From positions 1 through 31,139 of IMG/VR virus record IMGVR_UViG_3300042691_025932: a DNA stretch of 31,139 bases; one strand, 5' to 3'. Below, piece after piece: positions 3,489 to 28,809 of the stretch. Position 1 is the first letter of the stretch, and each line of letters begins with the position of its first letter. The notes below the pieces were generated by a model. It was not told where the DNA came from. It searched no databases and was given only the letters and a program-made list of their open reading frames with translations. The stretch is from a virus. The position numbers and the translations under genes are program-made.

Positions 3489-3694
3489 GGCGTGGCGAGT
3501 TTGTAGCTGGCAATGTTTGCGCCGTTCTTTGTGCGGCGGATGTTTGTATCAATGCGCCATCCTTCTCTGCGGAGGTCATTGATCCTGGCGGCAAGGCGTC
3601 CGATTGACATATCCGATGCCTGCGGTTGAGTGATACTGCGGCCCTTTTCGAGTAGCCGTGCGATGCGTTCAGCTTGTGTCAGTTTGGTTTTCAT
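3485..3694 (-). CDS. Helix-turn-helix DNA-binding protein, 69 aa
   Basis: A 69-residue winged-helix-like protein. ARLLEKGRSITQPQASDMSI followed by GRLAARINDLRREGWRIDT matches the pattern of small phage HTH proteins: a helix, then 'ITQ' plus a recognition helix with the LAARIxDLRxxG signature, then a wing (NGANIASYKLA). A longer upstream frame is rejected because it is Arg/Pro-rich shadow. ATG 3694 overlaps the stop of the membrane gene by ATGA. It probably regulates transcription or initiates replication locally; the target is unknown. Confidence 0.75.
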   Translation of the reverse strand: MKTKLTQAERIARLLEKGRSITQPQASDMSIGRLAARINDLRREGWRIDTNIRRTKNGANIASYKLATP

Positions 3695-13690: not shown

Positions 13691-13700
13691 GCGGAGTGTT

Positions 13701-13725
13701 TCGCCCCTGCCGCGCGAATGTCAAA
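13701..13725 (-). promoter_or_regulatory. Repeated TTTGACATTCGCGC element, copy A
   Basis: Minus-strand 14-mer TTTGACATTCGCGC at 13725-13712, with GA at element positions 24-25. The first base is 35 bases before the A of ATG 13690. The TGA inside the element is the stop codon of the upstream glycosyltransferase. TTGACA resembles a -35 box; no TATAAT-like box is seen. See findings. Confidence 0.65.
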
Positions 13726-14728
13726 GCGGCACCCACTCTTGATTCCTCACGCGCAAATGCCCGCGATAGGCCGGGTCTTGTTCGTGGAATGCCCGCATGT
13801 GGTTGATCTTCCCGTCCGCTTGTCGTTTGACATGGTCGCACACAACGTGAGGCACGCAGGCGATCTTCACGCCCGCCGGGTGCCAGCGGTGCCAGCACAG
13901 GAATAGATCCTGCGTTCCGCCGCCATCGTAACCGGAAAAATCCGCCAGACTGAGCGCCCGCTTGCCAATGAGCGTGCAACCAAGCCCGCACCAGTCGGAC
14001 GGGACCACGGCCCCTTCCCCGATTCCGGGATAGGCGAAATCCATCCAACCGCGCCGACGCCAGCCATGCTTGGCGGTCACCTCCCAAATGTTTCCATCCG
14101 GCGGGGATTGTTTCACCCGTTCGCGGAGCCGGCCCATGCGCTTGATTTCCTTTTCCCCGCCGCCGGACTTCAGCCGGGCTTCGCAGGCATCGAGGCAGGT
14201 TTTCAGGCGCGGTTTCAACTTCCGTTCGTGCGGCAGGAAGTCTTCGGCAATCGGGTTTTGCGGCGTGCCGAACCCGCCGAGAAACAGCCCGTTCGGATAC
14301 GTTGCGGCGGCGACTTCATAGTAGGGAGTGCCATCCTCCCGCGGCATGGCCAGCGTCCACTCCAGCATCCGCAGCGCGTGTGGCGGGACGATGTTGTCAC
14401 TCTCCACGCTCCACAGCATGTCGGCCTTGAGCTTCACCTTGGCATAATGGAAGGCGACACCTTGGAGCCGAGCGATGCGGAGCTGCGCCGCGTGCTTGTA
14501 GTCCTTGGCATCGTCTTCCATGCCCGCGAGGTGGAACGTGTGAACCTCCCAGTCTGGCGGGAGTTCGGACTTGATCGTCTCCTCCGCCTCTTTGGACTCC
14601 GGGCTGTCATCCGTCGCCAGAATGAAATGGGCGGTCTCCAGGTGGGCGGCGGCAACCGCGATGGATCGGACACACTGCGGCAGCGCGTGCATGTAGGATT
14701 TGGTGGCGGCGACGGCGATGGCGAGCAT
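13721..14728 (-). CDS. Glycosyltransferase, GT-A-like
   Basis: A 335-residue enzyme-like protein. The N-terminus (MLAIAVAATKSYMHALPQCV) and FILATDDSPESKEAE, then SVESDNIVPPHAL with ESD at 109-111 standing in for DXD, and a late DLFLCWHRWHPAGVKI segment fit a GT-A fold of the type seen in phage and host glycosyltransferases that move one sugar from a nucleotide donor. Its start overlaps the stop of the Ser/Thr-rich protein (TGATG), strong coupling to that gene. The frame to 14782 is longer than needed. Donor sugar and acceptor cannot be inferred from sequence. Confidence 0.72.
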   Translation of the reverse strand: MLAIAVAATKSYMHALPQCVRSIAVAAAHLETAHFILATDDSPESKEAEETIKSELPPDWEVHTFHLAGMEDDAKDYKHAAQLRIARLQGVAFHYAKVKLKADMLWSVESDNIVPPHALRMLEWTLAMPREDGTPYYEVAAATYPNGLFLGGFGTPQNPIAEDFLPHERKLKPRLKTCLDACEARLKSGGGEKEIKRMGRLRERVKQSPPDGNIWEVTAKHGWRRRGWMDFAYPGIGEGAVVPSDWCGLGCTLIGKRALSLADFSGYDGGGTQDLFLCWHRWHPAGVKIACVPHVVCDHVKRQADGKINHMRAFHEQDPAYRGHLRVRNQEWVPL

Positions 14729-16425
14729 CACATTCCGTAGGTGTTTGAGGTTGAAATGTATTGTGGGATCTCCAAAACACACGGACCCTCAATGTATTCA
14801 AGGCACTTGAGAACCACCGGCTTGGTGAAAGTGGCTTGGTAGCGTGTCGGGGCGGAATGGTAAGTGGCATCCTCCCCGCTATCATGAAAGGCGACAAGAA
14901 CGCCGGCAGGGACAACCGCGTCAACTGCGCCGATGGTTGTCCATGATTGCGTGTTCCGGGTCGTCTGGATGGTTTGGGCCGCGCCGGATGTGGCGAGTGA
15001 CATCGCGCCCGAAGATGTGTTTGGGTCCGTGCTTGCCGTCGTCGTGACTGTCCATGTCGAGCTAACCACGCTGTCCGTGCCAAATATCATCGTCACTATC
15101 CCTGGCGCGGTGTCGGCGGAATTGGTGAGCTTGGGGAAAGTGGTTCGCTGTTGATAAGGCGCGGGGGCGTTGGTTGAAACCCCCGCCTGCCAATCAGGGA
15201 AGCCGGAAACCGTGCGTGCCGCGGATGCCGTCAGACCCAATCCCACTGGGGCATCACTGAACTGGGTGCTCACCGGGTTCCATCCGTTGATATCGCTCAA
15301 AAGGTAATTGATTTCCGCTGTCACCCCGCCATTGCGATTTGCCTCGCCAAAAGTGGTGGCGCGCGGAAACTGTTCATACACGGCCACGGTTTGGACTGTG
15401 GTCTTGTAAGTGATGTTGCTTCTCGTGACGGTGGCTGTCGAGTGTGCTCCCGCTCCAAGGCCAGTGGAGGTGGAAAGCGATGACCCTCCCCAGTCCGCGC
15501 TCGATGTGTGGCTGGAAGTAGTGATGCCCACCGTGAAATCCTGTTCGTAGTGCGTCCCCGTCGCGCTGCCACTGCGGTGCATTGTGGTGGTGAAGTCCGC
15601 GTAGGAAACCGTGTTGGAACTTGTTTTGTTCCAGTTCCGGGTGTAGGTGTTGGGACCGGTGCTGGATGTGACGGTCGTTTGTGTTTTCGCCGATCTTGTG
15701 GTATGGCTTGTCGATGATGGCGGCAAACACCCTCCATGGAAACTTGAAACGGTCACGGAGGTGAAATCATGAGACGAAGCATATCCACGGTTCGTGCCGC
15801 TCAGGTGTGTGCCTGTCGTGATGGTGAATACGGTCGATGCGGGTCCAGCCGGTGATCCTGACCAAGCACTGGATGCCATGACTTTCCGCGTGAACTTCGT
15901 GGAATCAACGCGCGACCCTGCCGTCACCGGTTGCGGCCCCGTGCCGGTGTAGACCAGCAGATCAAACCCCACCTGAGCGTGGTATTCCATCGCGGTGGTG
16001 TCCGGCGTGCCGGATGCCGTTTCGGAATAGGTTTCAGAAGTCAATGTGCTGGTTGTGTGCGAGGTGGTGCCTGCTGTCCTGCTCGATGTTGTGGTTGCCT
16101 CGGTGCTTGCCGTCGTCCTCCCGCCTGCCGTGAGTGAGGATGTGGTGTATCCCGCCGTCGTCACCGTAAGAGTAACCGGATTCATCTCCTCATCGTAACC
16201 ATCGTAAGTCGAATACGATTCAGTCGTCGTGCCATCGATTGGCGTGTAAGTTGTCTCTGTGGTTACCGTCCGGTAGCGCGTGAGAGGCGTGGCCGAGTCG
16301 GCCGTGGTATCATTCCAACTTTCTGAAAAGCTGGTGTATGTTGTGTTCAGCGGCCAATCAATCGACTCGTAGCTGGATGAGCTTGCCGAGACTCCGCGCG
16401 TGGTGATGTCTTCGATGACTATCAT
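14728..16425 (-). CDS. Ser/Thr-rich structural protein, candidate glycoprotein
   Basis: A 565-residue protein, extremely rich in Ser and Thr. I count 66 in the first 147 residues, about 45 percent, with runs such as TTTSSRTAGTTSHTTSTLTS. The middle (YHAQVGFDLLVYTGTGPQPV) and C-terminal part (FTKPVVLKCLEYIEGPCVLE) look like ordinary beta structure. No family is recognised. It sits among tail genes and is directly followed by a glycosyltransferase. It may be a virion surface protein that carries O-linked sugar. Confidence 0.65.
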   Translation of the reverse strand: MIVIEDITTRGVSASSSSYESIDWPLNTTYTSFSESWNDTTADSATPLTRYRTVTTETTYTPIDGTTTESYSTYDGYDEEMNPVTLTVTTAGYTTSSLTAGGRTTASTEATTTSSRTAGTTSHTTSTLTSETYSETASGTPDTTAMEYHAQVGFDLLVYTGTGPQPVTAGSRVDSTKFTRKVMASSAWSGSPAGPASTVFTITTGTHLSGTNRGYASSHDFTSVTVSSFHGGCLPPSSTSHTTRSAKTQTTVTSSTGPNTYTRNWNKTSSNTVSYADFTTTMHRSGSATGTHYEQDFTVGITTSSHTSSADWGGSSLSTSTGLGAGAHSTATVTRSNITYKTTVQTVAVYEQFPRATTFGEANRNGGVTAEINYLLSDINGWNPVSTQFSDAPVGLGLTASAARTVSGFPDWQAGVSTNAPAPYQQRTTFPKLTNSADTAPGIVTMIFGTDSVVSSTWTVTTTASTDPNTSSGAMSLATSGAAQTIQTTRNTQSWTTIGAVDAVVPAGVLVAFHDSGEDATYHSAPTRYQATFTKPVVLKCLEYIEGPCVLEIPQYISTSNTYGM

Positions 16426-17000
16426 GACCAGATATACCAAAGATCCTGCGCCGGCATGCCCGGCGATGGCGGGCTGGCCTTGTCCGTGACCAGCGCGATG
16501 TGCGGGGCCGCGGTCGGGTTGCCATCACCAATCGCCCGATACGCCCTGCCGTCGAGCGTGACAGCGAACAGTATCTCAAAGCTCGCGGGTGCAAGGCTGA
16601 TCCTTGGTGACTGCGAAACAGGCGGTGTGCCATCCGCGACAATTTCAACCAGTGTGATTCGTTTGCCGTCCGTGCTGGTGCATTCCGCCTTCCAATAGGT
16701 CAGGTCTTTCGGCACCGTGATCACACTCATCATATTTGTCGGCATCATCGATGAGATGGACCCCGGCCAAACACGGCAATCATAGTTTGGATAGACACCG
16801 GAAACGGGAGTGCCAGTCCCGGTCATTTCGTAAATGTCCCATGGCTGAATTTCTGAAGCGCCCCCACCTCCACCTTTTTTCTTTGGGGTTTTGCGGTTCG
16901 CCAGCCGCGCGATGGCTTCGCGGATGGAATTCGCCCAATCCGCGCTGACGGGTTGGCCGGAACTCACGCGGGCCGGCAGGTTGATCGGGAGCTTGCTCAT
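16422..17000 (-). CDS. Tail/baseplate protein, 192 aa
   Basis: A 192-residue protein starting MSKLPINLPARVSSGQPVSA, with a short basic, glycine-rich spacer (TPKKKGGGGGASE, near 41-53) joining an N-terminal helix (WANSIREAIARLANRK) to a beta-rich part. N-terminal helix plus spacer recalls small phage connector-like proteins. No named family. Start overlaps the 266-aa gene stop by ATGA. Confidence 0.6.
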   Translation of the reverse strand: MSKLPINLPARVSSGQPVSADWANSIREAIARLANRKTPKKKGGGGGASEIQPWDIYEMTGTGTPVSGVYPNYDCRVWPGSISSMMPTNMMSVITVPKDLTYWKAECTSTDGKRITLVEIVADGTPPVSQSPRISLAPASFEILFAVTLDGRAYRAIGDGNPTAAPHIALVTDKASPPSPGMPAQDLWYIWS

Positions 17001-17797
17001 GGGGCTGGGGCGTAAATCCATTCCGGCCAAACCCCGGAAGTCCAGGTGAGGGAATAGGAATTCTGACCGCTGCCCAAGACCGAGATTTGTTCGGTCGCGC
17101 CGGTGAACAGCCAGGTGTGGCCGTCGGGTGCGCCGGGGTTTCCGGGTGGGGTGTCGATCTTGCCGAATTTCAAGAGAGTGGCGTTGCTGATCCCGCCGCG
17201 CCCGGTCGCCGACTTGGTCCATTCCGAAGTGGCGACGAGATAGGTGGTGTTTTCCCTTGTGACGATCAAATCGTAAATTTCAAGCGACTCCGCATCAACA
17301 CCATCCACGATGACCTGATCGTTGTGCGAATACTTGATCGAGGTTCCGTCCAGGTAAGCCAAACCGTCCGAAGCGGCCTTGATCCCGGTGCGGATGCCGG
17401 TCGGCAGCGATAGGAAGTCAGCATGGTTGAAGATGGACTCTTCCTTGAGGCTGTTGTTCCGCGTGTAGACGATGGAGGAGTCGAACGAGAAATCACCGCC
17501 CTCGCCCAAATCAACGCCGCCGAAATCGCAGGTGATGGTGGTGATGCCGCCGGGTTCGTCGCGGGATGTCCACGAATGCAGCAACAGATAGCCGAACTCT
17601 GTGCCAGCCTGCGGGTAGAGCGAGATCAAGGTGGTCCCCTGCCTGAGCTTGGCCTGGATGAGCGGCTTGCCGACATCATATTTCCGACACGTGAATTCCA
17701 TCGTCGCCGTGGTCTTCCCATCGGCATCGCGGACAATGGTCAGCGTCGGGCCGGGCCGCAGCGTGTTGGCAGGGATGTTGTAGAGCTTGGTTTCCAT
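16997..17797 (-). CDS. Tail protein downstream of tape measure, 266 aa
   Basis: A 266-residue beta-rich protein (METKLYNIPANTLRPGPTLT...). The position right after the tape measure, where phages encode distal-tail or baseplate hub proteins, suggests a tail-tip role. Segments such as FSFDSSIVYTRNNSL and YSLTWTSGVWPEWIYAP are typical of beta-sandwich tail proteins. No named match. ATG 17797 follows the tape-measure stop by 3 bases. Confidence 0.6.
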   Translation of the reverse strand: METKLYNIPANTLRPGPTLTIVRDADGKTTATMEFTCRKYDVGKPLIQAKLRQGTTLISLYPQAGTEFGYLLLHSWTSRDEPGGITTITCDFGGVDLGEGGDFSFDSSIVYTRNNSLKEESIFNHADFLSLPTGIRTGIKAASDGLAYLDGTSIKYSHNDQVIVDGVDAESLEIYDLIVTRENTTYLVATSEWTKSATGRGGISNATLLKFGKIDTPPGNPGAPDGHTWLFTGATEQISVLGSGQNSYSLTWTSGVWPEWIYAPAP

Positions 17798-17800
17798 AAA

Positions 17801-18868
17801 TTAGGCGAAACGTGACACACCGGACTCGTCACGGATTTGGGTCAACAGGGTGGTGTGCTTCTGCAGTTCGGGCGTGATGTTGTTCTGCGTGGTGGACGGG
17901 TCGGATTTCTTGCCGGGGAAGATCAGATCCTTGAGGCCAAACCCGCCTGAAAAGGATTCTTTCAATCCGTCAGCGATACTCTTCCCAAGTTGCTTCCCGA
18001 TATCACTGATGATCCCGCTAAGCCCATCTCCCTCTCTGAAATAGGTGAACGTGTTGCGGATGAGACGGGATATCTCCTGAATCTTCGGACGCAGTTTTTC
18101 AGGATCGAATTTGTCGAAGAACGCATCCGGGCCGCCAGGGCCGCCACTGAAGTTGAAAAACTCTTCCATGCCGATGCTGACGAGGCCGCGCTTAAAGTTT
18201 TCAAAACGGCCGAGCGCGTCGCCCCATTGATCCAGCCTTGCCGCTCCACCATCATCACCCATGGCCTTTTTCAATCCCTTGACGTTGTTTTCCGCCTGCT
18301 TGGTGACTGCTGCGTAATCCTGAAAAAGCTTCAGTTGTTGATAACCTAGCTTTGCTCCAAATAGGTCCGCCATGATGCCTTCCACGTTGTCGAGAGTTGG
18401 AGCAACAATGGCCAGCCTTTGAGCAAGAATGTCAAATGCCTCTCCAATATCTTTTCCAACGATAAATTGCCCGTCAAATCCGAGTTTCCGCAACGCATCT
18501 ACCGCCGGGCCTCCCTCCGTTGCCGCTTGCTTGAGGTTCATCGCAAAGCGGGAAACCACCGCGCCGGATTCCTTGGCAGATACCCCAGCCATGCGGAATT
18601 TCTCCTCAAGCACGACAAGGTCGGAAATCGACATGCCTGTGGCGGTGCTCATGTCAGTGAGGCTTCCCGCCCAGTCTGCGGTTTCCTTGATGGCATCTGG
18701 AATTGCCATCGCCATGCGACCCAGCAGGTCCGTCATCTTGTGACCCACCCGCTCCATTGCGCCGATCCCGATGCGGCCCAAGCCCTTGCCAATGCCGCGC
18801 GTCAGGTTGCCAAGACCACGGGAAACCGAAGTCCCGTCAAAGCCGAGTTTGAATGTGGTGCCGATCAT
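17801..18868 (-). CDS. Tail tape measure protein, short
   Basis: A 355-residue protein. The glycine-rich N-terminus (LGNLTRGIGKGLGRIGIGAM), then ADWAGSLTDMSTATGMSISD and FRMAGVSAKESGAVVSRFAM match the start of TP901/lambda-like tape measures. Identification also rests on its place after the frameshifting chaperone pair. Family members are often over 700 residues; at about 1.5 angstrom per residue this would give a tail near 50 nm. A C-terminal basic region ends ESGVSRFA. Start overlaps the fusion stop by ATGA. Confidence 0.82.
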   Translation of the reverse strand: MIGTTFKLGFDGTSVSRGLGNLTRGIGKGLGRIGIGAMERVGHKMTDLLGRMAMAIPDAIKETADWAGSLTDMSTATGMSISDLVVLEEKFRMAGVSAKESGAVVSRFAMNLKQAATEGGPAVDALRKLGFDGQFIVGKDIGEAFDILAQRLAIVAPTLDNVEGIMADLFGAKLGYQQLKLFQDYAAVTKQAENNVKGLKKAMGDDGGAARLDQWGDALGRFENFKRGLVSIGMEEFFNFSGGPGGPDAFFDKFDPEKLRPKIQEISRLIRNTFTYFREGDGLSGIISDIGKQLGKSIADGLKESFSGGFGLKDLIFPGKKSDPSTTQNNITPELQKHTTLLTQIRDESGVSRFA

Positions 18869-19505
18869 GTGAATTCAGGTTCTAGGGTTGTCCAGTCGTC
18901 GCGTTCCGTGTGCTGGTTGGCGACAGCGTTCTGGAATCGCTGCCAGTCGGCGGCGTCAGGGTCAAGGTAGTTGGTCCAGTGAAGCATCCCGCCACGGAAC
19001 ACGGCGTCGGCGTGCATGACTTGAAGCACACGGGAAACTTCCCATTTCGTGATGACGGTGTGCGTGTCGAGTCCATGGCGGATGCAGAAGTGGTCTATGG
19101 TGGCGAGGAATCCGGGGCTGGCTGGCGAGGCTTTCCCCCCGCCTCGCTTTCCACGATGGCGGCGGCGATGGATTCCATGCGGGCGAGGATCTCGGGCTTG
19201 AGCGCGTCGATCCCGGCTTCGTGGTCGAGATAGAAGTCGAGCACACATCGAGCGCGGGCTTCGCGGCTCATCTTGCGCAGTTCGGCGATGCCGGCCCGGT
19301 CTTCCTTGGCGAGCAGCCACATGACCAGCACGCCCTCGCACAGGCCAGCCTGGTGGGTCTGGGTGCCGTCACCCTCGCCGGTAAACAGCGCGGTTTTGAG
19401 TTCGCGCAGGATCTCATTGGCGAGTGGTGAAAAAAACAACTCCACGCCGTCGAGCGTCATGGGGTTGCCGGTGTAGCTTCGTGATAAGAGGCATTCGCGT
19501 TTCAT
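18865..19505 (-). CDS. Tail-assembly chaperone G-T fusion made by -1 frameshift
   Basis: Predicted 213-residue product: residues 1-125 from the G frame (19505-19131), then base 19131 is read again and 88 codons continue to TGA at 18865. Beyond the slip the protein is coherent (ASPGFLATIDHFCIRHGLDT onward, 'KWEVSRVL...DADAVFRGG'-like helical text), and the upstream part of that frame is Arg-rich shadow. This mirrors lambda gpG/gpGT, which load tail tube subunits on the tape measure. The extended product ends just before the tape measure start. Confidence 0.78.
19095..19505 (-). CDS. Tail-assembly chaperone (G-like)
   Basis: A 136-residue protein ending at TAG 19097-19095, the unshifted product. 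Helical, acidic, with FFSPLANEILRELKTALFTG and a C-terminal Ala/Glu-rich helix. It lies between the tail tube region and the tape measure, the gpG place. AAGGA upstream of ATG 19505 (about 10 bases) is one of the few clear Shine-Dalgarno-like sequences in the window, fitting a chaperone needed in quantity. Confidence 0.78.
   Translation of the reverse strand: MKRECLLSRSYTGNPMTLDGVELFFSPLANEILRELKTALFTGEGDGTQTHQAGLCEGVLVMWLLAKEDRAGIAELRKMSREARARCVLDFYLDHEAGIDALKPEILARMESIAAAIVESEAGGKPRQPAPDSSPP
19131..19137 (-). promoter_or_regulatory. -1 programmed frameshift slippery site GGGAAAG
   Basis: Minus-strand GGGAAAG, read as G GGA AAG in the G frame, preceded by further G's. It is the same heptamer used in lambda G-T. 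A slip to GGG AAA G joins the open second frame directly. I did not identify a clear pseudoknot downstream; the next bases are GC-rich. Confidence 0.8.
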
Positions 19506-19511
19506 ATGTTT

Positions 19512-20093
19512 TTATCCTTGGAGTCGTGAGAGAATTTCCCTGGCCTGCCATTGAGGGAGTCGGGCGTCGATCAGCGCGCGGCGGGTGTCCCTGCCGCTGC
19601 CTTCCTCGAAAAACAGTTTTTTGGAGGCGCCGCGGTATAGCTGGAAGCAGAGTTCCCGATTCCAGACGTAGGCCAGCACATAGGCGGCTTCACCCTTGGG
19701 TAGCGCGTTCACGAATGCCGGCACATCGTCCATACGGCGCAGGCCCGCGAGCCTGTGGCCCTGCTGCTCAAGGTATTCCGCGGCGAAGTCGAGCAGGTCG
19801 GCGCTGCGCTGGATGCCCTTGGGTCTGGCGCGGATGAACCGGCAGATGGCGGCGAATCCGTGATCCGCCGGCAGCGGTTGCGTGCCACTCCAATGGCCCA
19901 GCAGCGTGTCCACATCTTCCGTTCCATCCTCGGAATATTCCGCGAAGTTGTAAGACCCGTAGGGATGCGGGTGGCGATCCACGACGGAAACCGGATCGAG
20001 CACGTCCAGCGGAATCCCGCAGGCCATGAGAGCGGAGACCAGGTTGATGTCGCCAGAATGCCGGGAGCTGGTTCCGATGTAGGTGGATGTCAT
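19512..20093 (-). CDS. Unidentified tail-region protein, 193 aa
   Basis: A 193-residue soluble protein. N-terminus MTSTYIGTSSRHSGDINLVS; later GEAAYVLAYVWNRELCFQLY and RGASKKLFFEEGSGRDTRRA. No family. It sits between the tail tube candidate and the chaperones, and ends 6 bases before the G gene. Its middle segment (PVSVVDRHPHPYG...) has no motif I know. It may be a moron or a tail component. Confidence 0.55.
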   Translation of the reverse strand: MTSTYIGTSSRHSGDINLVSALMACGIPLDVLDPVSVVDRHPHPYGSYNFAEYSEDGTEDVDTLLGHWSGTQPLPADHGFAAICRFIRARPKGIQRSADLLDFAAEYLEQQGHRLAGLRRMDDVPAFVNALPKGEAAYVLAYVWNRELCFQLYRGASKKLFFEEGSGRDTRRALIDARLPQWQAREILSRLQG

Positions 20094-20109
20094 ATCTCTT
20101 GTGACCCGA

Positions 20110-20538
20110 TCAGGTCAGGGTGGCGGGGGAGTTGGTGGCAACGAAGGGATGGTAGACGCCGGTGATGCCGCCGCCTTCAAATCCAGTCTGGGTCGGCGAG
20201 AGTGTCGATCCGGTGACGATCACCGCGGCGTTGGCGTCGGGGGTCACATCAAGGTCTTCCGAGAGTTTCGCGCGGCTGTTGTTGGTCGCCTCGGCGATGG
20301 TCAGGACCGTGCCGACGTTGGATGCGAGTCCCGTCCCCTTGGTCTTGACGATGCCGTCGATGGAAACATCCTTGCGCTGGTTGTAAACCGCCATGCCGAC
20401 GACACAGCCGATGTGGTCCGGCGCCTCCGCGGTATCCGCAGTGCCGGTGAAGGTGATGGTCCCGACCAGCAGGCCGGTGGCGGATGAGCAGTCGGCGAGG
20501 CCGTATTGGGCGGAGGAGAAAACGGTGGCTTTGGACAT
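20110..20538 (-). CDS. Major tail tube protein candidate
   Basis: A 142-residue, beta-rich protein: MSKATVFSSAQYGLADCSSA, GTITFTGTADTAEAPDHIG, VVGMAVYNQRKDVSIDGIV and a Ser/Thr-rich end. The order tail terminator, tail tube, chaperones, tape measure is the normal siphovirus order, and length and composition fit a small tube protein. Identification is by position and composition, not by a distinctive motif. Confidence 0.62.
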   Translation of the reverse strand: MSKATVFSSAQYGLADCSSATGLLVGTITFTGTADTAEAPDHIGCVVGMAVYNQRKDVSIDGIVKTKGTGLASNVGTVLTIAEATNNSRAKLSEDLDVTPDANAAVIVTGSTLSPTQTGFEGGGITGVYHPFVATNSPATLT

Positions 20539-20550
20539 GGCGGGAGTGGT

Positions 20551-20985
20551 TTAGAGTGGAGCGGCGATGACGGTGAGCATCCAGCGGGACACGCGGCGTC
20601 CCTCTTGCGCCTCCGTTGTCGGAGCTGCCGCGCGAATGTCAAAGACCTCCCAAAAGTTGCGACCGGTGATCCATTCCACGGCGTCGAAGTTGGCCAGGAT
20701 GTCGGTGAGGTCCGTCCGCATGATGCGTTCGTCCTCTTCCGGCGTGCCTTCCTGGTCCTCTGCTGCCGGGACGGTCTGGAGTTCGCAGGTGATTTCGTAG
20801 GTTGAAACGCCGTAGAGTGTGACATCTCCCTGTTCGTAAATCGTGCTCCCGGACTCCATGAACCCGAGAAACGGCGGCGAGATGTCGCCATCGTCGCCCA
20901 TCTTGATGATGGACAGGTCAGCGAGGGAATCGAAGTCGACGCGGTGGTGTTCCACCCATTCGGCGAGAGAGTGCAGCAGGGTCAT
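20551..20985 (-). CDS. Tail terminator/completion protein candidate
   Basis: A 144-residue protein. MTLLHSLAEWVEHHRVDFDS at the N-terminus and YGVSTYEITCELQTV resemble neck or tail-completion proteins that cap the tail tube, and the place between the gp10-like gene and the tube gene agrees. The stretch EVFDIRAAAPTTEA near residues 112-126 is encoded by a copy of the repeated TTTGACATTCGCGC element. Overlaps the previous gene by ATGA. Confidence 0.6.
   Translation of the reverse strand: MTLLHSLAEWVEHHRVDFDSLADLSIIKMGDDGDISPPFLGFMESGSTIYEQGDVTLYGVSTYEITCELQTVPAAEDQEGTPEEDERIMRTDLTDILANFDAVEWITGRNFWEVFDIRAAAPTTEAQEGRRVSRWMLTVIAAPL
20619..20643 (-). promoter_or_regulatory. Repeated TTTGACATTCGCGC element, copy B
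   Basis: Exact 14-mer at 20643-20630, with GA at positions 24-25. It lies inside the tail-completion gene in frame (FDIRA) and shares 19 bases with copy A. There is no start codon at +35. The nearest downstream gene, the tail tube candidate, begins 105 bases away. See findings. Confidence 0.5.
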
Positions 20986-21686
20986 GGCTTTTGTTTCTGG
21001 TCTTGGCGTTTAAGAGCGGATGAATACCACTTGACGGTCTTTTTCAGACTCCACGCGATAGCACGCTTGGAATTGGAATCTTGCAGCACGTAAGCATCCG
21101 CAACATGCCGCGCCTTGTTTATGATTTCGGCACTTGGGCGCCACCCCGGGACCGGTCTGCGGGATGCCCCTAATTTTGCGTGCTTCTGGGCGTAGCCGAG
21201 AAAGTTCTTTCCGATATAGATACGATCAGAACCCTTTTGTGCGTTGGCAATATCATGACCCGCTCCGATCCACCCCCCCTTGGCAATACCAGCGGCCTTC
21301 TTGCGCTCGGTCATGGTCTTCTTGAAAATAGCCTCGGTCACGGTTGGTCTTTGGGATGCAGGCACCTTGCGCGTGTGACCTTTGCTTTTCCTCTGTGAAT
21401 CAATCCAGTCTGACACTTCCTGCACTGATTTCAACGCGTTGGCATTTCTGGAGGATATCTTCTGAACGATATTCAAAACCGTGCGTGCTCCAGCTTCAAT
21501 GGAGTTCCATTGTTGCTTTTTTGCCTTGGATGATCCTGTGCCGAAAACCTGAGTTGCCCCGGCTAGTTCACGGCAGGCTTGAACACCCCATCGACAAAGC
21601 GCCTGTGCGTTGCTATCTCCGAAATCACGGGAGAATCGCTTCAGGCTTCGTTCCAGCTTGGATCTGTCGATGGATGCCGTGATCAT
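20982..21686 (-). CDS. HK97 gp10-like neck/tail protein
   Basis: A 234-residue, very basic protein. MITASIDRSKLERSLKRFSR followed by a long helical, Lys/Arg-rich body agrees with the HK97 gp10-like family (often 110-200 residues), although the length is greater because of a middle Lys-rich segment (WIDSQRKSKGHTRKVPASQR). C-terminal helices (KARHVADAYVLQDSNSKRAI) follow. Neighbours are the head-tail joining protein and the tail terminator, as in HK97-like order. Confidence 0.65.
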   Translation of the reverse strand: MITASIDRSKLERSLKRFSRDFGDSNAQALCRWGVQACRELAGATQVFGTGSSKAKKQQWNSIEAGARTVLNIVQKISSRNANALKSVQEVSDWIDSQRKSKGHTRKVPASQRPTVTEAIFKKTMTERKKAAGIAKGGWIGAGHDIANAQKGSDRIYIGKNFLGYAQKHAKLGASRRPVPGWRPSAEIINKARHVADAYVLQDSNSKRAIAWSLKKTVKWYSSALKRQDQKQKP

Positions 21687-21994
21687 GCTTTTTCCACATG
21701 TTCCAAGGTGATGGTCGTGAAGTCAGCCCCCTTCCGAACGCCTTCCACGCGGAATGTCTGGCTGCGGGCGGTGGCGGTCTTCTTGAGGATGCTGGTGGCT
21801 GGCATATCCGCCGTGCGGCAAACCGCCGTGAGCGTCTTAGAAACCTCAAAGCCGCCACTGGAGAAGTCCTTTGAATCGTCCACTTCCGCCAGGACACAGG
21901 ACAGCGAGGTTGCGCCGATGGTGACGGTTTCCTCACCGATCATCGGAAACGCCTGTTCTGCCATGCTGCGGACGAAGGTGGAAACGATGGACAT
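21683..21994 (-). CDS. Head-tail joining protein candidate
   Basis: A 103-residue beta-rich protein. MSIVSTFVRSMAEQAFPMIG, EETVTIGATSLSCVLAEV and RSQTFRVEGVRKGADFTTIT resemble small head-tail adaptors (lambda FII-like). Position after the head genes and moron cassette supports this. It is preceded by copy C of the repeated element, 35 bases before ATG 21994, suggesting it heads a transcription unit for the tail. Confidence 0.65.
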   Translation of the reverse strand: MSIVSTFVRSMAEQAFPMIGEETVTIGATSLSCVLAEVDDSKDFSSGGFEVSKTLTAVCRTADMPATSILKKTATARSQTFRVEGVRKGADFTTITLEHVEKA

Positions 21995-22004
21995 GCGCTA
22001 GGCA

Positions 22005-22029
22005 TCAAGCCTGTGGCACGAATGTCAAA
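22005..22029 (-). promoter_or_regulatory. Repeated TTTGACATTCGCGC element, copy C
   Basis: TTTGACATTCGTGC at 22029-22016 (one difference), GA at positions 24-25, and first base 35 before ATG 21994. As in copy A, the TGA inside it is the stop codon of the upstream glycosyltransferase. Confidence 0.62.
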
Positions 22030-22576
22030 GCTCCGGGGCGGCGGTGGTCGCGGCGTCGTGGCGATAGGTGTGCAGCACGGCATCGATATGGTGAGCGGTC
22101 CTCGCCCGCTTCCGCGCCTGCTTGCACCAGACCAGATCCTCACCGTAGTTTGACTCACCGAACAGGCAACCCGCGATCACGTCACGGCGCCACGCGCAAA
22201 CATGCCACGGGGCGCGCTTGATGGTGCGACCATCCCTGAATACGTTGTCGGGGTTGTTGATGCCGAACTCGATCTGGCACTCCCGGCCGTTGTAAATGGC
22301 TTTTTGGCGGAACGTGATCACATCCGCGCCGGTTTCCGCCGCCGCCAACAAGCGGGCGATGTAATCGCCGGAAACTTCATCGTCATCATCCACGAAAGCA
22401 ATGTATTCACCGCGGGCGATGTCCACCAATGCCTGCCGCTTCGCGCCGATGCTGCGCTTCCTGTTGTCGCAGAAAACAAGGTGCTCAACCGCCGGATGGT
22501 TGCCGAGGCTTTTTTGCAGTGAGGCGAGCTGGCTTTCCCTTCCGGGAATTGTCGGAGTTAGAATACTGAGTTTCAT
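22025..22576 (-). CDS. Family 2 glycosyltransferase
   Basis: A 183-residue GT2-type protein. MKLSILTPTIPGRESQLASL is the nucleotide-binding strand/loop; AKRQALVDIARGEYIAFVDD leads to the metal-binding DDDD (63-66, the DXD). It is short for the family and lacks a membrane anchor. It should move a sugar from a nucleotide donor; acceptor unknown. It starts at ATG 22576 inside the end of the 59-aa gene (92-base overlap), and its stop lies inside copy C of the repeated element. Confidence 0.84.
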   Translation of the reverse strand: MKLSILTPTIPGRESQLASLQKSLGNHPAVEHLVFCDNRKRSIGAKRQALVDIARGEYIAFVDDDDEVSGDYIARLLAAAETGADVITFRQKAIYNGRECQIEFGINNPDNVFRDGRTIKRAPWHVCAWRRDVIAGCLFGESNYGEDLVWCKQARKRARTAHHIDAVLHTYRHDAATTAAPEL

Positions 22577-22664
22577 GTGGTTTCTTTCTGAAAATGCGCT
22601 CGTAGTTCTCCGCAAAGGTCTGCGGGTTGACGGGTCTCGGTGATGATCCTTTGCCTGCGCTCAT
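22485..22664 (-). CDS. Small conserved phage protein with N-x-x-RIF motif, 59 aa
   Basis: A 59-residue basic protein: MSAGKGSSPRPVNPQTFAEN then YERIFRKKP. This matches a small unnamed phage family of the form KGSxPRP...xxNxxxIFGKK. Usual members end just after the IFGKK, while this frame runs about 30 residues further over the beginning of the glycosyltransferase. Starts with an ATGA overlap with the upstream fusion gene. Function unknown. Confidence 0.68.
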   Translation of the reverse strand: MSAGKGSSPRPVNPQTFAENYERIFRKKPHETQYSNSDNSRKGKPARLTAKKPRQPSGG

Positions 22665-24895
22665 GGTTTGTTTTCGTTGATCCTGATCCAGCACCGGCCG
22701 TGCGTGCCAACCTTCCAACCGTGCGCCTCCGCGTGTTCATCCACGGCCCGCCTGACATCGTCGAACGGGTAATCGTGGCCGGCGATGATCCCGCCCGGCT
22801 TGACCTTGGGAAACCATGCGGCGACATCGCGCACCACCGAGTCGTAATCGTGAGCGGCGTCGATGAACACCCCGTCGAGAGAACCATCCTCAAACAAGGC
22901 CGCGGAGTCCGCACTGTCACCCGTCACCGGTGATATCATGTCCGCCACCCCTGCCGCCGTGATGTTTTCACAAAACTTGCCGAAGGTGGAACCGCCCAGG
23001 CTCTGCACGATTTCGATGTGCGCCGGTTGGTTCTTCTCGCCCTCAAACGTGTCCACACAGTGGACCTTCGCTTTCTTGCCCATGTCTTGAAGCCGTTGGC
23101 AGATGGTAACGGCGGACTGGCCCTGCCATGATCCGATCTCCACAAAAGTGCCTCCATCCGGCAGGCATTCCGCGATGGCATAATACAACGCCTTGTAATC
23201 GCACCACCCGTCGATCTCCGACGGCACGCGGATGCCTTCTTGCAGCCGGTTGAACGTGCCGGCCCCGGTTTGATAGTTCAGCGTGGCATTGGACCGCGCG
23301 TAGGTTTCATCCATCCGCCCCTTGCCGAACGCCGGGTGCATGTGCTCGAAAACGATGCGGTCCCTGGCGTCGATCACCACCCCGTCACGGAACGCACAGT
23401 GGGAGAACCAGTTGTCCGAAAACATGCTGAAGAACTCCTTGTGGAAAAGGTCGCCCTGCTGTTTGTAGCGCGCCCGCGTGCAGATCGCCATGCACAGCAG
23501 GTCATCATTCCGGTGGCCGTCGCTCACCGCGAGAACCGCCGGCTGGCTGGTGTCTCCGATGGTGTCGAGGATCGCCGTGTCCCACCCTTGGAACGGCGCG
23601 AAGTCGTCCGAAAGCTGGACCAGCACCTGACCCTTGCTGACCTTGGCCGCGGCATTCCACGCCCCGACCGGGCCGACGGAATCCTTGCTGACCACGCACC
23701 GCGCCACCACCAGCGGCATGCTCGTTTCGTCGTCCGCATCGATGGCAAAAATATGTTCGATGGCATCGGGATTGGTTGCGGAGCGCAGCCAGTCCATCCG
23801 CGTCCGCCATGCCTGTGCCGGTCGTCCCCTGGTCGCGTGCAAAAGACTGATTTTGGCGCCGTTTCGGATAAAATGGTTAGTTTCCAGCGCATCCGCTTCC
23901 TCTGACCTGTTGTTGACGCGCAGGGCGGACGCACGCAGGCTGATGCCAAGGCTGCCGTAGTAGTTGCGCCGAAGGTTCCACGGCGCGGCACGCGGCAAGG
24001 TGAGGCCCATCATGGCCTCGGTGTATCCGAGCGCGGCTTTCGGGTCGGTGATGATATTGGCTAGGCCAAGCTCGCCGTAAGCCTCACGCCGGGTCGGATC
24101 GGTGGCAAGCGCCTGGAGCAGCATCGCCTGCTTGGTTTCATCATCGCTCGCCAGCCGCGCGAGTTGGAAAAACGCCTCGTAACGTTCATTGGTCCCCACG
24201 CCCTCAAGTTGGGCGAACTCAACGGCCTTGGCGATCGCCTCGGCGTTGCGGTCGAGCGCAATCAGGCTTTGGAAAACGTGGAACTTCTGCGAAATGGTGC
24301 GGTCCGCTTCGGGGATGCTTTCGAGAATACGCAGGTTGCGCTCATCGCGTGACGCGCTGCGCTTCTCACTGGCGTGGACAATCTCGGCGCCATCGAAACG
24401 CATCTGCTTCGCACCCTCGCGGAATTTCAGGCACTCATGGATGGGATTCTCCCACCGTGCCGAACCTTTGCGCCAGATCCGCTCGCGCCAGTTGATCACG
24501 CCGTCTTCCGGCACCACGTAACGCATCAGCACCCCGTCCACATCCTTGTCGTGGATGTCGTCGATCAAGCGGCGGATCTGCTCCACCGAATCCGGCGTGA
24601 TGATATCATCCGTGTCCGCCCACATCAACCAATCCCCGGTCGCCATGTCGCACGCCATATTCCGGGCGGCGGCGAAGTCATCGACGTGTGGCCAATGTCT
24701 GCCGTTGACGTTCCGGTAATTCGCCCACCGGCAATTCCGCTCCTCAACGATCCGCGGCGTCCGGTCAAACACCTGATTGCCGATGGCGGAAACCACGATC
24801 ACCTCATCAGCAACCGGCCCGAAGGCATCCAGGAATCTCCCGATGTGACTCTCAACATTGCCAGCGATTACGCACAGACTCAGTTTGTTTCTCAT
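22661..24895 (-). CDS. Glycosyltransferase-glycosyltransferase-methyltransferase fusion
   Basis: A 744-residue multidomain protein. Residues 1-190: GT2 domain with LSLCVIAGNVES and the DXD-like ADTDD (93-97). Residues 195-300: helical repeats like TPR (FFQLARLASDDETKQAMLLQ). Residues 349-530: second GT-A-like domain (ISLLHATRGRPAQAW, then IFAIDADDE near 382-390 and QLSDDFAPFQGWD). Residues 560-744: SAM methyltransferase (TFVEIGSWQGQSA motif I, VHCVDTF motif II, GVFIDAAHDYDS). It probably builds a methylated glycan. A TTG at 24907 is the longer alternative; ATG 24895 is preferred. It follows the terminator. Confidence 0.85.
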   Translation of the reverse strand: MRNKLSLCVIAGNVESHIGRFLDAFGPVADEVIVVSAIGNQVFDRTPRIVEERNCRWANYRNVNGRHWPHVDDFAAARNMACDMATGDWLMWADTDDIITPDSVEQIRRLIDDIHDKDVDGVLMRYVVPEDGVINWRERIWRKGSARWENPIHECLKFREGAKQMRFDGAEIVHASEKRSASRDERNLRILESIPEADRTISQKFHVFQSLIALDRNAEAIAKAVEFAQLEGVGTNERYEAFFQLARLASDDETKQAMLLQALATDPTRREAYGELGLANIITDPKAALGYTEAMMGLTLPRAAPWNLRRNYYGSLGISLRASALRVNNRSEEADALETNHFIRNGAKISLLHATRGRPAQAWRTRMDWLRSATNPDAIEHIFAIDADDETSMPLVVARCVVSKDSVGPVGAWNAAAKVSKGQVLVQLSDDFAPFQGWDTAILDTIGDTSQPAVLAVSDGHRNDDLLCMAICTRARYKQQGDLFHKEFFSMFSDNWFSHCAFRDGVVIDARDRIVFEHMHPAFGKGRMDETYARSNATLNYQTGAGTFNRLQEGIRVPSEIDGWCDYKALYYAIAECLPDGGTFVEIGSWQGQSAVTICQRLQDMGKKAKVHCVDTFEGEKNQPAHIEIVQSLGGSTFGKFCENITAAGVADMISPVTGDSADSAALFEDGSLDGVFIDAAHDYDSVVRDVAAWFPKVKPGGIIAGHDYPFDDVRRAVDEHAEAHGWKVGTHGRCWIRINENKP

Positions 24896-24934
24896 TTCTT
24901 TATGCAAGTTTCATGCAACTGCCAACTCTTTGCA

Positions 24935-24973
24935 ATAACAAAACCGCCGCACCCGGTTTCCCAGATGCGGCGG
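24935..24973 (-). terminator. Rho-independent terminator after capsid gene
   Basis: On the minus strand CCGCCGCA (24973-24966) and TGCGGCGG (24951-24944) form an 8-bp GC-rich stem, extendable by two pairs, with a roughly 10-base loop, followed by TTTTGTTATT. It lies 27 bases past the capsid stop codon and before the fusion glycosyltransferase. Confidence 0.85.
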
Positions 24974-25000
24974 ACCATGAAACGAACCCAGCAGAGAAGG

Positions 25001-25894
25001 TTACGGTTTGGTGCCGAAGGCGAGGCCGAGGGTCAAGCCGGTGGCGGTTCCATAGAGGCACTCGAAAGCACCATACATGGTTCCGGTCGCTTGGTTGAAG
25101 CTGCGGCGATAACCCATCACGATGCCGGATGGATCGGCAACGCGCTCGGTGGCGAGATACTCGCCGGCGGCCTGCGGCTCAAGGTAGCGCATGGCGACCA
25201 TGATGGCATCCGGGTGAGCGGCGAACGCGACGAGCGAGGTCGAAGCGGTCGGCATGATGTTGGTTTCGTAGGTTGGGAAACCAATGAGCTGGCCGAGCGT
25301 GCCTTGGCGGGCGGCTTGGTTGTCACCGATGGAGTAGGCTTGCAGCACGTTGGTCGAGCCGAGCAGCGAAGCACCCACGACGGTGTTGTGAATGAACGAG
25401 CAGACGCCGGGGGAAACGTCCACGTTGCGGCCGGCCAGCACCTTGCGAAGCTCGATCAGTTCCTCCAAACCGTAGTTGGTTTCCAGGGTGGTGATCGAAG
25501 CGGAGCCGAAGTTGGTGGTGGTGATGAGCTTCCAGATGTTCTCAAGCACGCGCTGTCCGAGAGCGCGGCCGGCTTGCGCGGCAAGCTCGTCGAATCGGGC
25601 GCCGGACGAATTCGCGGATTGGAGATCCGTGATATCGAAGGTGACGATGCTGTGGTTGTTCAGGTTGACCGTGTTGTGGGTCACCGCACCACCGCCCAGC
25701 TGGTAGTTGGTGTTGGTGGCGTTGAACGTGGAAGCGGTCAGCGCGGAAATGAACGGGACGACAATCGCGTCACCCTTCTTTCCGGTTTGGTTGTCGAGCG
25801 ACTTGGAAAAGGCGCGGAGCGGGGCGAGCGTCGCGGTAAAAGCCTTGAGCGACTCTTGCGCGAAGATGGTATCATTGAAGGCGATGGTGGCCAT
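25001..25894 (-). CDS. Major capsid protein
   Basis: A 297-residue protein following the protease-scaffold gene and ending before a terminator. N-terminal MATIAFNDTIFAQESLKAFT, then GDAIVVPFISALTASTFNAT and the acidic/neutral beta pattern (FDITDLQSANSSGARFDELA) are typical of HK97-fold capsid proteins of phages with no separate N-terminal delta domain. Late segments (YEPQAAGEYLATERVADPSG-like, GYRRSFNQATGTMYGAFECL) fit the same family. Position and size support the call; the exact capsid family is not resolved. Confidence 0.8.
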   Translation of the reverse strand: MATIAFNDTIFAQESLKAFTATLAPLRAFSKSLDNQTGKKGDAIVVPFISALTASTFNATNTNYQLGGGAVTHNTVNLNNHSIVTFDITDLQSANSSGARFDELAAQAGRALGQRVLENIWKLITTTNFGSASITTLETNYGLEELIELRKVLAGRNVDVSPGVCSFIHNTVVGASLLGSTNVLQAYSIGDNQAARQGTLGQLIGFPTYETNIMPTASTSLVAFAAHPDAIMVAMRYLEPQAAGEYLATERVADPSGIVMGYRRSFNQATGTMYGAFECLYGTATGLTLGLAFGTKP

Positions 25895-25914
25895 GGTGGT
25901 TTATTGGTTGGAGA

Positions 25915-26391
25915 TCAGGGTTTGGTGAGAGCTTTGCGGATTTCCGCCTTGTTTTCGTTGTAGTATGCGGTGCGTTCGGCGCCTTGGAGTTTGCCGAGGA
26001 CGGCGAGATGATCGACGGGGCCGCTCGTTTCGGATTCCGGCAGCGGCTCGGGTTGGCCGATGGCGGCGAGAATCTGGGTGGCTTCCTTGCTGGCGGATTC
26101 CTTGGCGGCGGCGATCTCCTCGTCCTTGGCGGCGAGTTCGGCCGCGGCGGTTTCCAGCGCGGTCTGGGCCGTGGCGAGTTGGCCGGCCACCGCTTCATGC
26201 GACTCGGTGAGTTCCGCAATCTTGGCGATGTTTTCCGCGATGGTTTGATCCTTGGCGGAAACGTCGGCTTGCAGGGATTCAATCGCGGCCTGGGCGTTGG
26301 TCAGATCATTGCGGAGCGAATCGGTGTCGGCGATCAACGCCTCGATTTCGGATTCGTTTTTGCCGGGGAATAGTTTGGTGAGCAAACTCAT
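25915..26391 (-). CDS. Candidate nested scaffold protein start
   Basis: ATG 26391 is Met203 of the protease-scaffold gene. Starting there gives 158 residues (MSLLTKLFPGKNESEIEALI...) that are almost all helical coiled coil (DLTNAQAAIESLQADVSAKD, ELTESHEAVAGQLATAQTAL), then a proline-rich end. A copy of the repeated element ends 22 bases upstream. It recalls lambda C/Nu3, in which the scaffold is the independently started C-terminal part of the protease gene. Confidence 0.45.
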   Translation of the reverse strand: MSLLTKLFPGKNESEIEALIADTDSLRNDLTNAQAAIESLQADVSAKDQTIAENIAKIAELTESHEAVAGQLATAQTALETAAAELAAKDEEIAAAKESASKEATQILAAIGQPEPLPESETSGPVDHLAVLGKLQGAERTAYYNENKAEIRKALTKP

Positions 26392-26997
26392 ATCGATGGA
26401 AATCGGGGTTGTGGCGCGAATGTCAAAAATTTCGTCAGCGAAGCCTGCGGCGACGGCATCCTTGGCACCCATCCATGTTTCCTTTTTCATCATGGCGCGG
26501 ATGTCCTCGATGTCCTTGCCGGTGCGGTCGGCGTAGATGGCGGCGATGTCCGCCGAGATGCTATCAAGAAGGTCCGCGGCCTTGCGGAGTTGCTCGGCAT
26601 TGCCGCCCACGACATTGGAGGCATCGTGGATCATCATGCGGGCGTGCGGCACCATGCGGATGGTGTTGCAAGCCATGGCGATGACGGATGCCATGGATGC
26701 GGCCATGCCGGTGATGGTGGCGGTGACTTCCACACCACGCTCGCGCAGGCTCTTGATTTCCTGGAAGATGGTGTAACCGTCAAAGACACTGCCGCCGGGG
26801 CTGTTGATCTCGATCTCAAGCGTGTCCACCGCGTTTTCCGCGGAGTTCATGATGATTCCGAAATCCGCGCCCTCTGCCGCGGCGGTGGCGCCGAACAGCT
26901 TGCCGATCTCGTCAATCATCCGCTCGATGGCGGGCTTGGAAACGACCTCGTTGAGCCGCAGCTTGCCGCTTTTGTTTTCAATCGTCAGCATCTTCAT
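25915..26997 (-). CDS. ClpP-like prohead protease with scaffold C-terminus
   Basis: A 360-residue protein. Residues 1-195 form a ClpP-like serine protease: NSPGGS (65-70), catalytic Ser101 in GMAASMAS, His124 in MMIHDAS and Asp157 in DRTG. Residues 203-360 form an Ala/Glu-rich coiled coil, as in protease-scaffold fusions. It should cut scaffold and capsid precursors during head maturation. Start MKMLTIENKSGK at 26997 overlaps the portal end by 20 bases; ATG 26991 is also possible. Frames reaching 27192 are shadow. Confidence 0.9.
   Translation of the reverse strand: MKMLTIENKSGKLRLNEVVSKPAIERMIDEIGKLFGATAAAEGADFGIIMNSAENAVDTLEIEINSPGGSVFDGYTIFQEIKSLRERGVEVTATITGMAASMASVIAMACNTIRMVPHARMMIHDASNVVGGNAEQLRKAADLLDSISADIAAIYADRTGKDIEDIRAMMKKETWMGAKDAVAAGFADEIFDIRATTPISIDMSLLTKLFPGKNESEIEALIADTDSLRNDLTNAQAAIESLQADVSAKDQTIAENIAKIAELTESHEAVAGQLATAQTALETAAAELAAKDEEIAAAKESASKEATQILAAIGQPEPLPESETSGPVDHLAVLGKLQGAERTAYYNENKAEIRKALTKP
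26403..26427 (-). promoter_or_regulatory. Repeated TTTGACATTCGCGC element, copy D
   Basis: Exact 14-mer at 26427-26414, GA at positions 24-25. It is in frame in the protease gene (FDIRA), 36 bases before ATG 26391 of the candidate nested scaffold start. Confidence 0.6.
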
Positions 26998-28495
26998 CGT
27001 CTTGGGTGGTGGTTGGTGGTTCCGGCGGCTCCGGTTCTTCTGCCGGTGGCTGTGCCGCCATTTCGTTGGCCGTCTGCATGAACATCTCGCGGTCTTCCAC
27101 GGTGATGTCCACGCCATGCGCGGCGTTGAGTTCTTCCGATATCTTGCGGGCCTTGTATTTGCGCTTCCACACCGAGCGGGCGCGGGCGTCATAAAACTCG
27201 TCCTCGGTCAGGCCGCGGGCGCCGAGCACTTCGGACAGATTGCGCGAGCCAGTGACCAATTCGTCGAGTTCCATCTTGGACTCCCGGCCATCGTCCACGG
27301 TGAGACGCGGCGGATAGCTGAATGTCCACGCCGTCGGGTTGTTGAGCGGGGTAAACCGGCCACCCTCCGCGAAGACGGAGTAGGCCCATGCGAACGCACG
27401 CTTCGCGGCATACCAGAGCTGGCCCTGCCGCTTGGTGACGAAGCGCCGGCACTTCATGATCTCGCCACGCTCCGCCGTGCCTTGGCCGGCACCTTTCCAG
27501 ACGGAATAGGACCACACCGGGACGATGGCGTCACGGTTGAGGCGGTCTTGGAAAGCCTCCCACACCGGGCCGGGGTTGTCGTGCTTGATTTGCTCGATGC
27601 GCTGGTTGCCATCGGCAGGTAGATACATGACACCGCCGGGAAACGCCTTTGATGAGAAGCCCGCCGCCCCTTGATCCGTGGTCCGGTCCAGTTCGGTCAT
27701 GGGGTCATCTAGGTCGGGCGCGCCGGTGTCGTTGAAAATAGTGAGGTGCAGGCGCGAGATGATCTGCTGGCGGATGCGCTCGTCCTCGGTCGAGAACAAC
27801 GACATCTTCAGAGATTCCAGCGCATGGGTGAAGGCCGGGAGACCGCGCCCCTGCTCGCAGTGGGTCGGGTCAAACAGGTGGATCACATCAGAGGCCGGGA
27901 TGTCCTGGAACACCTCCTTGTCCACTCCGACGTTGAAGCGATAGGCGGCCGGCCTGCCGCTCCTGAAATAGATGATGCCGTCGTTGATCCGGTAGCCGGC
28001 GAACGGCCCGGAATTGACCACATTCTCGGTGCCTGTGTTGTAGCACCGGTGCGATGGGATGAGCTGGATGCGCGGGAAACCGTCCGCACCTTTCACCATC
28101 AGCCAGAAAATTTCGCCATCGCGGTCGATGGCGACGGATGAGAGTTCCAGCACCTTCCACCAGTCGAAGATGCCACCGCGGGTGTCGCACTGCGGCAACC
28201 ACACATCGGTCATGAACTTGGCGACCGCCTTGCCCTTCTCGATGTCCTGGCCGGCGTAGGATGGCAGCCATGCCTCGCCCACGGCGTAATCCGCTTTTTG
28301 CAGGATGCACGCGCGCGGCACGCCCATGTTCATGAACAGCCGGTTGCTCAAACTGCACAACGTGCGCCGGTCATGTGACGGGATGAGACGGTCAATGTCA
28401 TCATTGCGGACGGCATACTGCGGGCCGCGACGATACGAACGATCCGCCGCATGCGCGAACGTGTAGGGGTTGCCGAATTCGTTGAGGATGGCCAT
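26978..28495 (-). CDS. Portal protein, lambda type
   Basis: A 505-residue portal protein. AVRNDDIDRLIPSHDRRTLC, VGVPRACILQ-type helix, DRDGEIFWLMV and IQLIPSHRC, then VIHLFDPTHCEQGRGLPAFT are the family motifs, followed by a long C-terminal charged tail (EEPEPPEPPTTTQDDEDADD). It forms the 12-fold ring that DNA and the tail attach to. Lambda-type portal (B protein) is found with GpA-type terminase. The start MAILNEFGNPYT at 28495 follows the preceding TAA by 3 bases. Confidence 0.92.
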   Translation of the reverse strand: MAILNEFGNPYTFAHAADRSYRRGPQYAVRNDDIDRLIPSHDRRTLCSLSNRLFMNMGVPRACILQKADYAVGEAWLPSYAGQDIEKGKAVAKFMTDVWLPQCDTRGGIFDWWKVLELSSVAIDRDGEIFWLMVKGADGFPRIQLIPSHRCYNTGTENVVNSGPFAGYRINDGIIYFRSGRPAAYRFNVGVDKEVFQDIPASDVIHLFDPTHCEQGRGLPAFTHALESLKMSLFSTEDERIRQQIISRLHLTIFNDTGAPDLDDPMTELDRTTDQGAAGFSSKAFPGGVMYLPADGNQRIEQIKHDNPGPVWEAFQDRLNRDAIVPVWSYSVWKGAGQGTAERGEIMKCRRFVTKRQGQLWYAAKRAFAWAYSVFAEGGRFTPLNNPTAWTFSYPPRLTVDDGRESKMELDELVTGSRNLSEVLGARGLTEDEFYDARARSVWKRKYKARKISEELNAAHGVDITVEDREMFMQTANEMAAQPPAEEPEPPEPPTTTQDDEDADD

Positions 28496-28498
28496 GGC

Positions 28499-28774
28499 TT
28501 AGAACGTGGTGAGCTGCGTGCTTGAAATCGGAGAACCGTTGTCGAGACACAGGACAACCCACCGCAATACCTGCAACCGCTGGCCATTGGTCATCGCGGA
28601 CTGGGCGGAGAACGTCTGCCCGTTGATCGTGGCGGATGTCACCCGCGCGGATGCGTTCGGGTCCGTGGCGATGCTCAATGCCAGCGACGCGAACTCGGCG
28701 CGGATAGCGGCACTCGCCTGCGCGTCACACTTGACCGCGGAGTAAATGGTGTTCCCAAGGCTGGCGACGTTCAC
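28499..28774 (-). CDS. gpW-position head completion protein, GTG start
   Basis: A 91-residue protein starting GTG at 28774. N-terminal Ala/Ser-rich helix (CDAQASAAIRAEFASLALSI), then VTSATINGQTFSAQ, a hairpin resembling gpW-type head completion proteins, and SPISSTQLTTF at the end. It lies between terminase and portal, the lambda gpW position. The start is 35 bases past copy E of the repeated element, which supports GTG. Function by position only. Confidence 0.6.
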   Translation of the reverse strand: MNVASLGNTIYSAVKCDAQASAAIRAEFASLALSIATDPNASARVTSATINGQTFSAQSAMTNGQRLQVLRWVVLCLDNGSPISSTQLTTF

Positions 28775-28784
28775 GCCGATGGAG

Positions 28785-28809
28785 TCGCCGCCATGGCGCG
28801 AATGTCAAA
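28785..28809 (-). promoter_or_regulatory. Repeated TTTGACATTCGCGC element, copy E
   Basis: Exact 14-mer at 28809-28796 directly after the TAG stop of the membrane-protein gene, with GA at positions 24-25. First base is 35 before GTG 28774. Downstream positions 15-20 differ from the other copies. Confidence 0.62.

Follow-up and report, generated by a model that had tools for sequence, protein, structure and literature searches.

Five copies of one block in the window

We asked why a single 14-mer should recur five times on one strand of a viral genome and what might read it. The DNA analysed here (the window) is a virus record of 31,139 bases (IMGVR_UViG_3300042691_025932), in which the structural genes lie on the minus strand in the order terminase, portal, Clp-like maturation protease, capsid and then tail genes. 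Its closest named relative by capsid protein is Verrucomicrobia phage P8625 (25% identical; there was no other named one), and therefore, judging from this sequence relationship, the host is probably a verrucomicrobium. A tyrosine integrase gene (4556-5626, minus strand) suggests that the phage is temperate; no related prophage was found in two scans of bacterial genomes.

The 14-mer, TTTGACATTCGCGC, is present as four exact copies and one copy with one mismatch, all on the minus strand and all at the positions given by the initial annotation. When one mismatch was allowed, five copies were found where shuffled sequence predicts 0.01, and 0 of 100 dinucleotide shuffles reached five. The span first given (13701-28809) holds the five copies but not every downstream gene. 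Each copy is followed by a second box; all window features below are on the minus strand. Element E (TTTGACATTCGCGC, a -35-like block at 28796..28809, second box 28781-28786) precedes a GTG at 28774 (+35), which opens the 91-aa gene before portal (gpE, 28499..28774; hmmsearch 1.5e-5 to its P8625 ortholog gp08). This is the first gene of unit E, which also contains the portal gene (26978..28495; phrog_21, E 2e-18). Element D (26414..26427, second box 26399-26404) lies within the ORF of the Clp-like prohead maturation protease (25915..27192; phrog_94 6e-62, PF00574 4.7e-31), which has a C-terminal scaffold part, and is read there in frame as FDIR. An ATG at 26391, 36 nt from the start of element D, would begin a nested in-frame product of 158 aa (25915..26391) that we infer, from its position, to be the scaffold. 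The major capsid protein (25001..25894) was recognised by its position and by a distant match to P8625 gp11 (annotated P22-coat-like).

Element C (TTTGACATTCGTGC, the one-mismatch copy; 22016..22029, second box 22001-22006) stands before the 103-aa gene (gpC, 21683..21994, ATG at 21994, +35), whose product is weakly Phage_attach-like (PF05354, E 0.0016, below the cut-off). Between capsid and the head-tail genes, 22025-24907 encodes a 748-aa glycosyltransferase/methyltransferase and a 196-aa glycosyltransferase; both genes are retained in 7/9 of the phages compared below. Element B (20630..20643, second box 20615-20620) is an in-frame FDIR near the 3' end of gB (144 aa, 20551..20985), with initiation predicted near 20608. 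Its probable target is g142 (20110..20538), perhaps a tail protein gene, 105 nt downstream of B. Element A (13712..13725, second box 13697-13702) precedes the 297-aa gene (gpA, 12797..13690, ATG at 13690, +35). Just upstream of element A, 13721-14782 encodes a weakly glycosyltransferase-like 353-aa protein, the gene for which is common, among the nine phages, to the window and G001 only. The distances from the first base of the element to the start codon are 35, 35, 36 and 35 nt for A, C, D and E, and the window copies have GA at element positions 24-25, both as first described. Two further weak matches, a sixth one at 18436 with two mismatches and one at 7121 (both minus strand), were rejected, having neither a second box nor a start codon.

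Conservation at five gene boundaries

To follow the element in other phages, we gathered ∼52 related loci by their capsid and terminase (TerL) proteins, and the motif was not used in their selection. In these loci and the window, copies with up to two changes numbered 62 on the coding strand and 0 on the other. The core TTGAC[A/T]TTCG was found 139 times on the coding strand versus 0 on the opposite strand in the protein-fetched loci plus the whole contigs of six; as the related loci overlap one another, 139 is a redundant count. The non-redundant count in the protein-only set is 43 core sites, with ATG or GTG at +35 or +36 in 34/43. We set aside statistics on loci retrieved by patterns with A25 and the start codon built in, and redid the key counts on the protein-only loci.

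The same five gene boundaries carry the element in nine divergent phages, seven of them found by protein and two (G010 and G012) through the motif. Element E precedes the 91-aa gene in 9/9 phages, at a distance of 35 nt in eight and 36 nt in one, and element D precedes the internal in-frame ATG of the protease gene in 9/9 (+36 in eight, +39 in one). Element C stands 35 nt before the 103-aa gene in eight phages and 34 nt in one, and element A is exactly 35 nt before the 297-aa gene in 9/9. Element B lies 102-114 nt before g142 in seven phages, and in the two others (G003 and G004) it lies 36 nt before it. A weight matrix gave scores >20 only at the five orthologous boundaries, at an extra copy before g234 in two phages and at position 3609 of G006, and all other matches scored ≤16.6. 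In the nine phages no element was found before the starts of terminase, portal, capsid, gB, g193 or g266. Thus the element passed the test that the initial annotation had set for itself, namely that related phages should keep it at these boundaries. Searching all viral contigs with the 14-mer alone was uninformative and returned many single chance matches; among the papers listed in a literature search, the printed motif occurred only in unrelated human cardiac and stem-cell papers, probably as primers.

The second box, the start codons and the reader

We then asked whether the element has the architecture of a promoter. TTGACA occupies element positions 2-7, and the hexamer at 24-29 follows after 16 nt. 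TTGAC(A/T) is present in all core sites, where it is part of the search pattern, and reading TTGACA as a -35-like box is supported. Beyond positions 1-12 there is one strong column only, A25 (37/43 in the protein-only set, 48/55 in a larger alignment), while A at 26-27, C29 and T30 are favoured, which makes the second box roughly NA(A/T)(A)NC(T). The spacer to this putative -10 is thus 16 nt, sometimes 17, and the second-position A of the box is almost invariant. Of the proposed GA, only the A at 25 is strongly conserved in the relatives and the G at 24 is not; the SRCAG-like positions 15-19 show no conservation there. The start codon moves together with the A: 5/5 sites in which it is shifted by one base (to 26) start at +36, compared to 0/18 of the +35 sites with such a shift (Fisher p 0.013 in the larger set). 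If A25 corresponds to -11A, the first RNA base is position 36, where a start codon at distance 35 begins. Initiation is therefore predicted, from the box spacing, at the start codon or at the base preceding it. In this respect the initial expectation of a -35 box with initiation at the start codon stands, but the second box is not 'GA' and instead, with a few copies of the TAnnnT form, resembles a degenerate σ70 -10. Because the test for a TATAAT or TAnnnT -10 failed (TAnnnT is found in 4/59 copies only), we did not file the element as an ordinary σ70 promoter. As a separate observation, TTGACA-16-GATAAT is present 21 nt before an ATG at about 11155 of L192 (G004 contig 31155, plus strand), a possible early promoter with a leader.

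The start codons behind the element (44 ATG, 15 GTG and 0 TTG, n = 59) lack the signature of a leader. These phages make scarcely any use of Shine-Dalgarno motifs (9 of about 106 core starts versus a background of 11.5%), and an A-rich stretch precedes their other starts, with A at -3 in 22/43. Behind the element, A at -3 is found in 1/36 (p 9e-7, protein-only set), as expected if the DNA upstream of the start codon is outside the message. A pyrimidine preference at -1 was also seen and was discarded, as it did not differ clearly from other starts (p 0.07). Unit D ends at a strong intrinsic terminator after capsid (24944..24973; a 13-pair stem with a T-rich tail), a similar post-capsid terminator is present in 6/8 phages, and in G002 and G010 a terminator begins 31 nt before element C. 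With a terminator between them, unit D (scaffold, capsid) would be closed and element C would restart transcription.

With the element placed on the coding strand only, upstream of structural-gene units, we consider it quite likely from these sequence features that the five blocks are late promoters of one phage lineage that yield leaderless or near-leaderless mRNAs, except at B. TTTGAC(A/T)TTCGC would span the -35 region plus a little more, and the weak second box with its fixed A, 16 nt (sometimes 17) after TTGACA, would act as the -10. RNA polymerase, most likely that of the host, would initiate on the start codon or on the base just upstream, and a small phage activator may perhaps read the TTCGC extension. 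The leaderless messages of the initial annotation would then hold, strictly or nearly, for the 91-aa gene, the scaffold, the 103-aa gene and the 297-aa gene (elements E, D, C and A) but not for copy B, which in most phages would start a message with a leader of ∼70 nt. Copy D, inside the protease gene, would provide extra scaffold and capsid mRNA that ends at the post-capsid terminator, with little protease. Counting against the late-promoter reading are the rarity of TAnnnT, which makes host sigma by itself a less than obvious reader, and the gpC copy of G006, which is weak (score 11.3) and departs from the consensus.

Which factor could read such a block? Most likely it is host RNA polymerase with its main sigma, perhaps together with a small phage activator. 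A dedicated phage sigma-like factor or activator that reads the block, which host RNA polymerase alone does not, is a serious contender, even if we lean slightly away from it; it is the specificity version of the late-promoter reading and is not exclusive of it. Such a factor would suit a conserved stretch of 11 bases, longer than a -35 hexamer, followed by a poor second box, and at two orthologous boundaries the sequence in P8625 is a different one, which would fit factors specific to a lineage. However, no match to sigma70 region 4 over the cut-off was found in the nine phages, and the 25 best-represented Pfam/PHROG families listed for 60 early and unassigned ORFs, in phage contigs that are possibly incomplete, included no sigma, no T7-type RNA polymerase and no late activator of a known kind; a few copies with TACAAT-like second boxes also speak against it. 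The phage-encoded or ECF sigma suggested at the outset is thus not supported so far by the phages scanned.

Selection as DNA and comparison with known systems

As the distance to the start codon is nearly fixed (35-36 nt), the element could instead be a signal linked to translation. We therefore considered an RNA signal in the 5' untranslated region (a translation enhancer, a ribosome site or a processing site), and in the absence of Shine-Dalgarno motifs another such signal might be needed. This appears improbable to us: at B the spacing differs between 36 nt (two phages) and 102-114 nt (seven), A25 is spaced as in a promoter and moves together with the start codon, and neighbouring genes of the same phages manage without the block. 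In addition, RNAalifold gave no consensus fold and there was no Rfam match. A tRNA search was empty. A binding site for some other purpose (a repressor operator, partition or packaging) would agree with several copies per genome in a single orientation, but it would need neither the 35-36 nt to starts nor a second box nor the same boundaries across distant phages, and we judge it very unlikely.

The initial annotation had also claimed that the block is conserved as DNA and not as protein, with FDIRA readable in frame from copies B and D only and with A, C and E at or after stop codons. Both claims agree with what we found. At A and C, the gene upstream ends with the TGA contained in TTTGACA (13721-13723 for the 353-aa gene and 22025-22027 for the 196-aa glycosyltransferase gene, minus strand), the overlap at C recurs in several relatives (G001, G003, G004 and G012), and element E stands after a TAG stop. 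At D, all nine phages have the codons TTT/GTT GAC ATT CGC, with the synonymous positions fixed as well, despite a codon usage that prefers TTC and ATC. Element B provides a natural test: seven phages have FDIR inside gB, ∼105 nt before g142, whereas in G003 and G004 gB is without FDIR (the translated G003 sequence reads ELLANSPETTE at that place) and the element is found 36 nt before g142 instead. The element has moved as DNA and the FDIR residues were lost. That the block is a protein motif, FDIR, recurring by chance is hardly credible, since FDIR or VDIR is in frame at D and most B copies but A, C and E lie either in another frame or outside coding sequence, which already refutes it there, the codon choice at D is fixed and B loses FDIR when the element moves.

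A more far-reaching form of the late-promoter reading can be put forward tentatively, and we hold it to be rather less probable than not: a clade of verrucomicrobial phages may use start-codon-fused promoters, in which an undescribed phage factor reads an 11-base extended -35, most late messages are leaderless and the protease-to-scaffold ratio is governed by a promoter within the protease gene. If the late-promoter reading itself is right, phages of Verrucomicrobia would gain one of their earliest promoter maps; in some members of this phylum, Shine-Dalgarno signals have been described as scarce (PMC10783764). On this reading, abundant structural proteins would be translated from leaderless messages, scaffold dosage would be set by an internal promoter and an undescribed factor would recognise the element. 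It also yields gene-start calls that annotation programs would miss, for example the nested scaffold.

Finally, we compared the element with known systems. P8625 (PMC4642752) has the same head gene order as the window, with orthologs of the 91-aa gene (gp08) and the 103-aa gene (gp13), and it also has start-abutting elements: upstream of gp08, gp13 and gp15, TTGMCA and, after a further 17 nt, TATTGGATAC lead up to the start codon. Unlike in the window, the repeated sequence adjoining the start codon is TATTGGATAC, and TTGACATTCGC is absent. The TATTGGATAC copies are at 5435, 9643 and 10759 of L176 (NC_029047, plus strand), with an inverted copy before 17541, and the start of gp13 is probably near 9656 and not at the annotated TTG at 9620. 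As P8625 has start-abutting elements at orthologous genes, the placement of the putative promoter against the start codon seems to be older than its present sequence. Promoters of the σ70 type share with the window element TTGACA, a 16-17 nt spacer and a fixed A at the place of -11A, but the window element has a poor -10 hexamer, and its conserved block extends five bases past the -35 hexamer. The middle and late messages of Thermus phage P23-45 are leaderless, and their promoters are phage promoters used by a host RNA polymerase that the phage has reprogrammed. These promoters belong to the extended -10 class, and gp39 blocks the contact between sigma4 and the -35 (PMC7403470). In contrast, the window elements conserve the -35 region and have a weak -10. 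In lambda (C/Nu3) and in herpesviruses (UL26/UL26.5), the scaffold is an in-frame product of the 3' part of the protease gene, as is predicted here. The likeness of UL26.5 to the predicted internal promoter is one of logic only, and we do not claim homology. In lambda the scaffold arises from an internal translation start, whereas in the window a promoter within the protease gene is predicted to take that role.
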